Origin: Microcaldota archaeon
GTDB lineage: Archaea; Micrarchaeota; Micrarchaeia; Micrarchaeales; CABMGC01
Direction of reading: 5' to 3'
Assembly (NCBI GenBank): GCA_021851065.1
Contig: JAJZJQ010000008.1
Span: 1 to 55,690 of the forward strand
DNA: 55,690 bases
The translations under genes and the position numbers were made by a program. The notes under the pieces were generated by a model, which did not search any database, had not been told where the DNA came from, and worked only from the letters and a program-made list of their open reading frames with translations. Below, in pieces: positions 28,425 through 36,541 of this stretch (the stretch's first letter is position 1; the number at the start of each line of letters is the position of its first letter).

Positions 28425-31327
28425 GGAGAAGCAAGCTTGTTTTTTTGGAAAGTTTTGAAAACTTTTCCTAAAATTTTAGGTGTTAGTTGCGGTGGACTCA
28501 CAGGTCGCCGAAGCTTCCTGCTTACATCCCCGCCCTATCAAGGCCGTGTAATGCGGCCACCCTAAGTGTCTCGTTTCGGATGCGGCTTCGCCCTTAGATG
28601 CTTTCAGGGCTTATCCGCCCAGCGCGTGGCTACCCGGCAGTGCCTTTCGACAACCGGTCCACTAGAGGCGCCCACCTTTCGTTCCTCTCGTATTAAAAAG
28701 GTGTTATCCTCTGACACTAACACTCCCAGTAGTTGCTACCGTACTGTCTCGCGACGTACTGAACTCAGCTCATGTAGGTTTTTAATGGACGAGCAGTCCA
28801 ACCCTTGGGGGCTCCTGCACCCCCAGGATAACCTAAGCCCATATCGGTGTATCAAACGGCGGGGTCGATGTGAACTCTCACCCGCCACGAACCGGTTACC
28901 TCTAGAGTAACTTGTTTGACAGCTTGGTGCCCCATTAAAAAGGCATCCAACGTTCGTTAAGTCACTGTTTCCAGTCTGCATCCCACGCTTTTCGGGATAC
29001 AGTCAGCCCTGCATTTGCCTTTATGCTTCACAGAGGGTTCCCAACCCTCCTAAGCAGAGCATTGATCACTTTCGTTTCCTTATCGAAAGCAACCGCCCAG
29101 TCCAACTATCCATCTGCTGTTGTCCAATTACTTGTAAGTCGCGCGTTAGGCGCAGAGTGGTGTTACAGGATCGCTCAGCCCAGGCCGGAACCCGGCTTCG
29201 ACGCTCCCACTTACGCTTTGCAGCACCTAACGCACAACAGCAACAGACTATAGTCAAGTTTCATAGAGACTTCGCTACCCACTGAGAGAACGTGGCATGT
29301 ACACCACGTAGTAAGTTCACCAGGTCCCGAGTTGGGACAGTGGAAGAATCGTTACGCCCTTCATGCAAGTCACCTATTAAGTGACGAGGTATTACGCTAC
29401 CTAAAGAGAGTCAGAGTTACTCCCGCTCTTTGCTAGGGCTTAGTCCCGTTGAAACGGGGTTTCGCTGACTAGCGGTGAGCAGGCGTCACCCACTGTACTC
29501 AGCCTTGCGGCTGTGCGGTGAGTTGTGTTTTTGATAAACAGTCGTTCTTCCCTTGATAATGCTATCTGCGCTTACCAAGCGCAGACATGGCTTATAGATA
29601 ACATACGCCACTATTTTGCCGATTTCCCTAACCCGGGTTCCCCTGACACCCCTTGGCTTTTTCAGCCAGCAGCACCTGTACTGGATCTAGGTACGGATTA
29701 TCGCGATCGTTGCAGATTCCCTTTTCACGGGCTCAGGAATTTGGCCATTTCAGATCATTTAGCTGCTTCTCCTCATAATGAGACTCCGCAGCCTTTTGCT
29801 CCTGCTTTCAGGCCTATCCCCAAGCGTCAGAAATCTGCCTTGTGTTGCCACACCTACGCGACAAGCGCATGAATATTAACATGCTTCCCTTTTGCATGGT
29901 AGTGATTGGCTCCATGCTTAGGACCGGCTAACTCCCAGCTGACGATCATTGCAAGGAAAACCTTGTGCTTCCGGGGTACGGGATTCACGCCCGTATATGC
30001 TGTTACTAATACCAGGATTTTCACTGCTGCACGGTCCACTTGATCGCAGGATCAAGCTTCCAGCCGTGCAGTACGCCCTCCTACCCGATGTTATCGCCGA
30101 GGTTTCGGTACTTGGTTTAGCCCCGTCCATCTTCGGATAGTAATGACTCAATCGGTACGCTATGACGCGTTTTTTAAAGGGTGGCTGCTTCTGAGCCTAC
30201 CTCCCGACTGTCTAAGCCACTACCGTCCTTTGATGCACTTAACCAAGATTTAGGGACCTTAACCCCGGAAACTGCCTTTACAGCATCGCGACGCTAGCTT
30301 ACCCAACGTCGCCGACTCCTGGAGTCTACGCAGCACACGCATTCGGAGTTTGACGGGAGAGTGGCCCCTTTCGGAGCCGAACCCTCTAATCGGTCGCTCT
30401 ACCTCGTGTGCGAGCTCGTCCAAGGCTATCCTAAAGATACTTCGGAGGGGACCCGCTATTGCCATGTTCGAATGGTCTATCGCCCCTACCCGCAGCTCAC
30501 CCAACAGGACATGCCATGACAGGTTGCGGACCTCCACCAACTGTAAAGCTGGCTTCGTCCTGGCCGCGAGTAGATCACAATGGCTTCGGGTCGAACCGGA
30601 GCGACTTGAGGCATTTTCATGCCCAGCGCCTCCTTGCGTGCGCGCTCTCGCTTTCACTTCGCTATAAAGCTCGCCGCTCCGATGCACTCCCTGGCTCTTG
30701 CTTCGAGAAGAATGACAGAACGCTGGTCCGATGGGCTCGCTCCCCAATCACTTGGTTCGCTTCGCCCGCTTTCATTCCTTCCGCGCCCTGCCTTCTCGTA
30801 ACCACCTAGTTTCAGATCTGTTTCAATCCCACACGCGTGGGTTCTTTTCAGCTTTCACTCGCGCTACTTGTTCGCTATCGGTCTCTAGTCAATGTTTAGG
30901 GTTGGGGTTTAATGCCCCGTATTCGGCCGGCATACCAAAGCCGGACTACTCTCCTGCCACAAGACCCGCTCTGCTTAGTCTACGAGGCTGTCACTCTCTA
31001 TGGCCTTCCTTTCCAGAAAGTTCGACAGACATCGCGGGTTCATACATGGCCCACATCTATCCGATTTTGCAATCGGAAATTCGGTTTGCCCTGTGCCGGT
31101 TTCACTCGTGTTACTTACGGCATCGATATTCTTTCTCTTCCTGCGTGTACTAAGATATTTCAATTCCACGCGTACGCTCGCACCACTATTCATGGTGCAC
31201 ATTTAGGGTATCCCGGGTTCAAAGGCCGACATGCGCCTACCCCGGGCTTATCGCAGCTTGCCACGCCCTTCGTCGCTACTAGAGCCAAGCCATCCACTAG
31301 GTGGCTTAGTTACAAGCTTGCTTCTCC
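28425..31327 (-). repeat. 16-bp inverted repeat: 23S rRNA processing stem
   Basis: GGAGAAGCAAGCTTGT (28425-28440) is the exact reverse complement of 31312-31327. The two copies flank the 23S gene directly and would pair in the precursor, forming the long stem with bulges that archaeal tRNA-splicing endonuclease cuts to release 23S rRNA. A second hairpin, GGAAAGTTTT-GA-AAACTTTTCC-like, lies inside the 3' arm at 28447-28468. Confidence 0.8.
28470..31309 (-). rRNA. 23S ribosomal RNA (ends approximate)
   Basis: The sequence is recognisable along its length on the minus strand: near the 5' end the conserved CCTAGTGGATGGCTTGGC, the central peptidyl-transferase region, the sarcin-ricin-type hairpin region and the 3' segment GCATCTAAGGGCGAAGCC followed by GAAACGAGACACTTAG. 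The length of about 2.84 kb is slightly short for an archaeal 23S and I see no inserted homing-endonuclease ORF or obvious intron. No 16S, 5S or tRNA-Ala lies beside it, so the rRNA genes are unlinked here. The ends are set just inside the processing stem and may be off by 10-20 bases. Open frames within it are shadows. Confidence 0.92.
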
Positions 31328-34387: not shown

Positions 34388-35122
34388 GTGATAGAGATAA
34401 AACTGTTCAAGGAGTGCAACCTGAAAGGCTACAGCCTCATAGACGCGTTCCCAGGCGTAGGGCTCGTAGGGCCGATGGCAGGCAGCTACATAATAGAGAA
34501 GCTGGGAATGACGTACATAGGCTACATAGACAGCGATTCATTCCCGCCAATAGCCGCAATACACGGCGGCACGCCCATATTCCCAGCAAGAATCTACAAG
34601 GACGACAAGTACAAGCTTGTAGTGGTAATGTCGGAGTTTATCATACCGTCAACATCCATCTACCAGCTCTCGCGCGAGCTTCTCGAGTTCGTCAGGAAGT
34701 ACGGCATATCGAAGGTAATGTCGATAAGCGGCATGCCGTCTAACAAGCCTGGCGACACCACTTTCGTGACGTCTCCAAATCCAGCCACAATAAAGAAGGC
34801 ATCAAAGGCAGGCCTAAAGACCATAAGCGAGGGCGTCGTAGCCGGCGTCGGCGCAGTGCTCATGATAAATTCCATGCAGTACAACGTAGAGTCAATGAAT
34901 ATCCTGGTAGAAGTAAACCCGCAGATAATGGATCCAAAATATGCAGAGAATGCCCTTATAGGCTTAAACAAGATAATAGACATAAATATAGACTTAAAGG
35001 ATCTTGACGAGGAGGCGAAGAGGGTGGAAGCCAAGATAAGGGACACTCTCAAGAAGATGAAGGAGAGTCCAGAGCACTATGAGAATGCAGCAGAGGCTAC
35101 TGGCCCATCAATGTACGCATAG
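34388..35122 (+). CDS. PAC2-family protein (proteasome assembly chaperone-like)
   Basis: The 244-residue protein shows PAC2 family features: LIDAFPGVGLVGPMAGSYIIEKLGM at the start, FPPIAAIHGGTPIFPARIY, VVVMSEFIIPS, and ISISGMPSNKPGDTTFVTSP. In eukaryotes PAC2 helps assemble the proteasome; archaeal members form trimers related to PbaA/PbaB with uncertain roles, some acting as ATP-independent chaperones. The C-terminal 35 residues form a charged coiled coil (LKDLDEEAKRVEAKIRDTLKKM). It starts with GTG at 34388. No proteasome genes are near. Confidence 0.85.
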   Translation: MIEIKLFKECNLKGYSLIDAFPGVGLVGPMAGSYIIEKLGMTYIGYIDSDSFPPIAAIHGGTPIFPARIYKDDKYKLVVVMSEFIIPSTSIYQLSRELLEFVRKYGISKVMSISGMPSNKPGDTTFVTSPNPATIKKASKAGLKTISEGVVAGVGAVLMINSMQYNVESMNILVEVNPQIMDPKYAENALIGLNKIIDINIDLKDLDEEAKRVEAKIRDTLKKMKESPEHYENAAEATGPSMYA

Positions 35123-35216: not shown

Positions 35217-35321
35217 GCAGGGGTGGCAGAGCCTGGAATGGCCCACTCGGCCACGGAAAATGCGCAGGACTTAAGATCCTGTGGCCTAGAGCCTTCGAGA
35301 GTTCAAATCTCTCCCCCTGCA
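35217..35321 (+). tRNA. tRNA-Leu (anticodon TAA) with enlarged D-loop
   Basis: Acceptor GCAGGGG/CCCCTGC, anticodon arm CAGGA-CTTAAGA-TCCTG, a long variable arm with GGC/GCC stem, T-arm GAGAG-TTCAAAT-CTCTC and discriminator A are all normal for tRNA-Leu. The D-arm GCA/TGC (35226-35228/35261-35263) encloses a 32-base loop in place of about 12-13. The extra 20 bases (about 35237-35256) hold a TGGCC-CACTC-GGCCA hairpin and are bounded by GGAA repeats. They are either a mini-intron or an extra helix. No CCA is encoded. Confidence 0.88.
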
Positions 35322-35389
35322 ATTGCTACAAAAGGCCGCTGCTTTCAGGGTGTAATGCTTTTTAATTTTCCTTTCCATTATTGCTAGGT

Positions 35390-36541
35390 ATGATGGCTGG
35401 CAGACCACAAATAAATCTGGGACTTGAGGGCGTTTATTTCGATGAAAGCAGGATATGCAAGGTAGACGGCCAGAAGGGAGAGCTGTATTACATGGGCTAT
35501 CCCATAGCTGAACTCGCGGCGAGATCCACCTACGAGGAGGTGTGTTACCTTCTGCTATATGGCAAGCTCCCCAAAAGGACCGAACTGGGCGCATTCACAT
35601 CGCAGCTAAGGGAATCAAGGCAGATACCTGAAGGCCTGCTTTCGCTGATAAGGTCAATGGCAAAGAAAGCCCATCCTATGGATACCCTAAGGACCGCCAT
35701 ATCTGCTCTGCCTGCTTATGACAAGGAGGCTTATGACAATTCGACTGCTGCAAACCTCAGGAAGAGCGCAAGGCTAATCTCACAAACCGCAAGCATAACC
35801 GCGGCGATAGGCAGGCTCAGGCAGAACAAGGTATACGTAACTCCTGACAATACCCTGGGCCACGCGGAGAATTTCCTCTACATGCTAAACGGATCAAGGC
35901 CTAGCCCAAAAGAGGCCAGGATAATGGATACCATGATGATGCTGCACGCAGAGCACAGTTCAAATGCATCCACATTCACCACAATAGCCGCAGGATCAAC
36001 GCTTAGCGACATGTATGCCGCGGTTACTGCAGGGATAGCCGCACTAAAAGGTCCTCTTCATGGCGGGGCAGACGAGGCTGCGCTGCGCATGGTACGCGCA
36101 ATAGGCGATCCTGGGAATGCAGAGCGGTACATAGACCAGGCTATTGCAAAAAAGCAGCGCATAATGGGATTCGGGCACAGGATATACAAGACTTACGATC
36201 CGAGGGCGAAGATAATCCGCTCCTACCTGCTTGAACTGCATAACACCTCTTCCAAAGAAGTGCGCAGGCTCACCGGCATAGCGTTGAAGGTAGAGGAGCT
36301 TATGGTCAGCAAGCTAGGGAAGCAGAAAGGCATATGGCCAAATGTGGATTTCTTCTCAGGCCCGGTATATGTGGCCGCAGGCATACCTGCGGATCTCTTC
36401 ACCCCGCTGTTCGCAGCTAGCAGGGTGGTAGGATGGTGCTCACACATGATGGAGTACTGGCGGAGCAACAGGCTGATAAGGCCTCTCGATTACTATACCG
36501 GCAGACTTAACATGAGATATGTGCCGATCTCAAAAAGATGA
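35390..36541 (+). CDS. gltA: Citrate synthase
   Basis: The enzyme condenses acetyl-CoA (or a related acyl-CoA) with oxaloacetate. The 383-residue short archaeal/2-methylcitrate-type protein has YMGYPIAELA, the His motif MMMLHAEHSSNASTFTTI, LKGPLHGGADEAA, GFGHRIYKTYDPRA with the catalytic His/Asp region, and NVDFFSGPVY. Two ATGs (35390, 35393) are equally good; a TTTTTAATTTTC box about 25-30 bases upstream suggests a leaderless transcript. It faces the PrpD/ComA-like/IDH/Mqo operon with convergent stops, so the two units supply consecutive steps from opposite strands. Short-type enzymes often also use propionyl-CoA, and the PrpD neighbour keeps a methylcitrate role open. Confidence 0.93.
   Translation: MMAGRPQINLGLEGVYFDESRICKVDGQKGELYYMGYPIAELAARSTYEEVCYLLLYGKLPKRTELGAFTSQLRESRQIPEGLLSLIRSMAKKAHPMDTLRTAISALPAYDKEAYDNSTAANLRKSARLISQTASITAAIGRLRQNKVYVTPDNTLGHAENFLYMLNGSRPSPKEARIMDTMMMLHAEHSSNASTFTTIAAGSTLSDMYAAVTAGIAALKGPLHGGADEAALRMVRAIGDPGNAERYIDQAIAKKQRIMGFGHRIYKTYDPRAKIIRSYLLELHNTSSKEVRRLTGIALKVEELMVSKLGKQKGIWPNVDFFSGPVYVAAGIPADLFTPLFAASRVVGWCSHMMEYWRSNRLIRPLDYYTGRLNMRYVPISKR

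Follow-up and report, generated by a model that had tools for sequence, protein, structure and literature searches.

The 20-base insert in the D-loop of the tRNA-Leu(UAA) gene described here is, at a probability of about 0.92, a miniature archaeal intron that the organism's own splicing enzyme would remove, and its motif, as read from the sequence, is a relaxed bulge-helix-bulge (BHB) of the HBh' type, situated in a class II tRNA. An insert occupies the same place in the D-loop in 87 of the 88 readable Leu(UAA) genes of the order. The original prediction had left the choice between a miniature intron at an unusual position and an extra helix kept in the mature tRNA, and it is the intron that the evidence now strongly favours.

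The gene and its surroundings

Within the window, which is the whole 55,690-nucleotide stretch that was analysed, sequence reading placed a class II tRNA-Leu gene with anticodon UAA between a PAC2-family gene and a citrate synthase gene, the latter having its closest named relative in a Candidatus Micrarchaeota archaeon. The features of the locus are as follows, with two alternative registers for the predicted intron.

34388..35122, + strand: PAC2-family gene, upstream neighbour
35217..35321, + strand: tRNA-Leu(UAA) gene with insert, 105 nt
35217..35238, + strand: exon 1 in register 2 (register 1 end, 35237), from homology to insert-free D-loops and the BHB scan
35233..35235, + strand: central helix 5' strand, C17-U17a-G18, from alignment pairing and RNAfold
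35236..35238, + strand: 3-nt bulge G19-A20-A20a at the predicted 5' splice site, from its constant 3 nt among relatives and RNAfold
35239..35258, + strand: predicted intron in register 2, 20 nt, TGGCCCACTCGGCCACGGAA, from the BHB scan, shuffle test and RNAfold
35238..35259, + strand: predicted intron in register 1, the alternative, 22 nt
35239..35243, + strand: intron hairpin 5' strand, TGGCC, from alignment pairing and RNAfold
35249..35253, + strand: intron hairpin 3' strand, GGCCA, from alignment pairing and RNAfold
35254..35256, + strand: central helix 3' strand, CGG, from alignment pairing and RNAfold
35259..35321, + strand: exon 2 in register 2 (register 1 start, 35260), from the BHB scan, shuffle test and RNAfold
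35272..35274, + strand: anticodon TAA, from sequence reading
35381..36541, + strand: citrate synthase gene, downstream neighbour

The same window carries a complete archaeal 23S rRNA gene on the reverse strand at 28463-31321, identified with Rfam.

The acceptor stem (GCAGGGG/CCCCTGC, followed by A73), D stem (GCA/TGC), anticodon arm (CAGGA-CTTAAGA-TCCTG), variable arm (GGC/GCC) and T arm (GAGAG-TTCAAAT-CTCTC) could all be read, and the D-loop contains GGAA-TGGCC-CACTC-GGCCA-CGGAA. The initial observation of a 20-base hairpin insert, containing TGGCC-CACTC-GGCCA, in the D-loop of a gene whose other arms are canonical was borne out by this reading and by RNAfold, which folded the unspliced 105-mer with the 5-bp hairpin TGGCC/GGCCA separated by a 3-nt bulge from a CTG/CGG helix that follows the D stem.

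A decayed or disrupted copy, with UUA read by another tRNA, would be in keeping with two properties of the gene, namely that it was reported neither by ARAGORN nor by the Rfam tRNA model in the unspliced window, and that UUA is a rare codon (4/171 Leu codons in five window genes). A second, normal tRNA-Leu(TAA) gene, which had been named as the sign of such decay, was not found in the 1.13-Mb source assembly (36 contigs, ~87.5% complete), where the remaining Leu tRNA genes have anticodons other than UAA. With no second gene found, and with arms and insert conserved across the order, decay was rejected as a very unlikely explanation. Separate from the intact genes, 3' fragments of tRNA-Leu were seen in the source genome (L235, G000:C25:21979-22002) and in a relative (L214, G043:C23), and these may be what is left of attachment sites of integrated elements.

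Bacterial tRNA-Leu(UAA) genes, which share this tRNA identity, are known for a group I intron that lies in the anticodon loop, is hundreds of bases long and is self-splicing. A group I intron was rejected here on the length of the insert (~20 nt), its D-loop site and the lack of any Rfam intron match in the window.

Conservation across the order

The search for relatives covered 98 genomes of the same order, 88 of which had a readable Leu(UAA) gene, the sole insert-free one being that of genome G062. The other ten (G004, G024, G030, G032, G043, G046, G050, G053, G056 and G088), most of them incomplete, were searched again and no readable gene was found; G032 has a listed completeness of 93%, and in G043 there is only a 3' fragment of the gene. 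The tRNA was also absent from the named Micrarchaeota contig L129. It had been proposed that equal lengths among relatives, with no evidence of splicing, would speak for a retained helix, and the lengths in fact differ, from 101 to 117 nt, with a hairpin loop that varies freely between 3 and 18 nt inside nearly invariant flanks. The consensus across the order runs AG-Y-C-U-G-G-N-N, then UGGC-loop-GCCA-C-R-G-A-A, then A(A)A-Y-G-C, and the predicted intron, taken in register 2, is 16-31 nt long.

The pairing was preserved where the letters had changed. The UGGC/GCCA helix has compensatory changes to UGAC/GUCA (L107) and UGGU/ACCA (L122, L124), the helix between C17-U17a-G18 and C-R-G is paired in 99.5% of countable alignment cells, and genes with C at 17a carry the matching C-G-G. 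A bulge of constant size, 3 nt, separates these helices (GTC in 54 genes, GTT in 16, GAA in 13). At columns 12 and 57 of the same alignment (A1), 33/77 Leu(UAA) genes have an A-C mismatch for the D-stem pair 12-23 and the others have A-U or G-C; the mismatch may reflect an A+.C wobble or base editing.

This conservation can also be cited for the alternative that the mature tRNA keeps the hairpin as an additional arm of its D-loop, one that leaves the outer elbow after 20a, with G18/G19 still meeting the T-loop. The hairpin is conserved with covariation, its loop is in some relatives down to 3-4 nt, GAAA tetraloops included, as would suit a stable arm, and position 20a is at the outer elbow of a tRNA, where an insert could be tolerated. 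However, G18 is paired in the predicted fold, by RNAfold and by alignment pairing, and the exon bases pair with the 3' end of the insert across a bulge of fixed size, and for these reasons, together with the D-loops that excision would restore, a retained arm is improbable. If true, it would be a new clade-specific tRNA shape used across an archaeal order.

Excision of the predicted intron would restore D-loops of a known kind. Outside the order but in the same class, 11/12 Leu(UAA) genes read have no D-loop insert, with D-loops such as AGCCCGGTCAAATGC (L167) and AGCCTGGAAAACGC (L166), and the D-loop of G062 (L164), within the order, reads AGCCTGGTCAAATGC. Removal of UGGC-loop-GCCA-CRG-AA yields GGUCAAA and GGAAAA D-loops, both kinds being known in insert-free genes, and the suggestion that exact removal would restore a normal loop held good, since the product, GAGCCTGG-AAAA, is a D-loop seen in insert-free relatives. 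G062 probably lost its insert in place, because its Leu(UAA) gene has the same 3' neighbour as those of its insert-bearing congeners G096 and G076. In another family of the class a Leu(UAA) gene (L170, G106:C12:5149-5331) has an ordinary D-loop and an intron adjoining the anticodon.

The predicted splicing motif and its two registers

The central helix of a canonical archaeal intron forms between exon 1 and the 3' portion of the intron, and on each strand it is followed by a bulge. The canonical motif has a 4-bp central helix and two 3-nt bulges, and relaxed motifs (HBh', hBH and BHL), forms lacking one bulge among them, have been described (PMC6379350). At the D-loop site of Leu(UAA), the central helix is YCUG/CRGA or CUG(G)/(A)CRG and is accompanied by a 3-nt bulge and the intron hairpin, so that the bulge-helix-bulge geometry proposed as a check is present in relaxed form: there is an exon-intron central helix of three to four pairs with a 3-nt bulge at the predicted splice site, but no outer helix stands beside the central helix, and the 3' site falls in an A-rich internal loop, short of the full canonical BHB.

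When the BHB layout was scanned for, the expected 37/38 cuts came out on top for several of the source genome's intron-bearing tRNAs; the other small tRNA introns of this genome are 13-43 nt long. By itself the scan was not enough to distinguish the D-loop site in individual Leu(UAA) genes, other chance pairings often scoring as high or higher, and our case therefore rests on conservation, on the product and on a shuffle test at fixed position. When the insert letters were shuffled, 0.7% of trials formed the required helices; of the real genes, 73/81 in register 1 and 79/81 in register 2 have the required geometry at that position. Chance was rejected as an explanation of the insert on this result and on its conservation in 87 genomes of the order. 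ARAGORN called Leu(taa) in 3/81 unspliced genes and in 81/81 after splicing in silico, whichever register was used.

The two registers that fit the intron borders differ by one base on each side. Register 1 (35238-35259) gives a central helix of four pairs in 59/81 genes, whereas the product of register 2 (35239-35258) is exactly the D-loops of insert-free relatives, and register 2 needs neither the Y16-A pair, which is C.A in many genes, nor the first hairpin pair, broken in 7/77 genes. We prefer register 2 on homology, with cut sites that are predicted to within one base on each side; the intron position is likewise uncertain, since homology would place it after nucleotide 20a and the bulge rule after 20.

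A fuller layout was encountered in another order of the class, where the gene of G208 has a 38-nt insert at the same D-loop position. Its central helix has 4 bp (CTGG/CCAG), its two 3-nt bulges are TC^A and AA^A, and its intron hairpin has 6 bp, again without a contiguous outer helix. Such a BHB-like arrangement at the same site weighs against a retained arm.

The sister gene tRNA-Leu(CAA)

The tRNA-Leu(CAA) gene of the source genome (G000:C20:6411-6507, reverse strand; L234, L236) has an insert in its T-loop, which recurs in most genomes of the order as GAG-TTCAA-loop-GAAC-AAAT-CTC. Its central helix, GTTC/GAAC, has 4/4 pairs in 34/34 genes read, the G.U variants GAGC, GGAC and GAAT included, its predicted intron is 11-15 nt long and its bulge is AAA. 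The layout is hBH, the mirror image of HBh'. This insert is almost certainly spliced, because a retained one would pair T54-T55-C56, and that it could hardly be retained is a further point against retention of the D-loop arm. G062 (L206) is without this T-loop insert also, yet keeps an endonuclease and other long tRNA genes.

Splicing enzymes and proposed pathway

The question of which type of endonuclease is encoded, another of the proposed checks, was answered in favour of splicing. The genome has one splicing endonuclease gene, of 386 aa, and its product matches the three-unit epsilon-2 enzyme of ARMAN-2 (Ca. Micrarchaeum), to which it is closest, over its length (4FZ2, E=2e-129). Identical residues align with Y236/H251/K282 and K161 of 4FZ2, the former being the catalytic triad and the latter a loop lysine that supports broad specificity (PMC6379350, PMC12397907), and in vitro the purified ARMAN-2 enzyme cleaves introns of both the BHB and the BHL type (PMC12397907). 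An RtcB ligase gene is present ~250 bases from the Leu(CAA) gene, so the genome holds genes for both a predicted broad-specificity endonuclease and a ligase.

From these components we infer cleavage, ligation and the cut sites as follows. In the precursor, exon bases C17-U17a-G18 would pair with C-R-G near the 3' end of the intron; the 3-nt bulge would come next, and the intron would then fold back as the UGGC/GCCA hairpin, leaving the 3' splice site in the A-rich internal loop. The epsilon-2 endonuclease would cut both sites and RtcB would ligate the exons; the resulting tRNA, of 83 or 85 nt, would have an ordinary D-loop.

Several points pull the other way. The motif is relaxed, with three or four central-helix pairs and no directly adjacent outer helix, two registers fit, the loops of 3-4 nt would suit a stable retained hairpin as well, and G062, without the insert, still has an endonuclease and other long tRNA genes. 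As to an intron with regulated splicing, or an excised product with a function of its own, the strong conservation of the intron ends across the order and the rarity of UUA could be cited in support, but pairing to conserved exon bases explains the conserved ends, the loop is free to vary and one species does without the insert, all of which makes such a role highly doubtful.

Relation to known introns and significance

The predicted intron resembles the archaeal introns at noncanonical positions with relaxed BHB motifs (hBH, HBh', BHL) in its helix and 3-nt bulge at the exon-intron border, its D-loop position, the standard tRNA that excision would restore and the accompanying broad-specificity endonuclease (PMC6379350). 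It is unlike them in its very small size (16-31 nt), in belonging to a class II tRNA and in its fixation over a Micrarchaeota order. The ARMAN-2 epsilon-2 enzyme, of the same type as that found here, has as its substrates pre-tRNA-Ile UAU (BHB) and pre-tRNA-Cys GCA (BHL), which are other tRNAs, and the substrates found in that work do not include the D-loop intron of Leu(UAA) (PMC12397907). According to a 2015 review, class II tRNAs had provided no instance of a translocatable intron (PMC4390854). The type of intron is thus known and the Leu(UAA) case is a new example of it, although it may have been listed earlier, in the 2011 ARMAN intron survey.

If the intron reading is correct, miniature noncanonical introns have become fixed across an order of ultrasmall archaea in class II tRNAs, in the D-loop of Leu-UAA and the T-loop of Leu-CAA, and the former would account for an apparently missing tRNA in such genomes. 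The two genes would also provide a large natural set of substrates in which the requirements of the broad-specificity epsilon-2 endonuclease could be tested on the mirror-image motifs HBh' and hBH.
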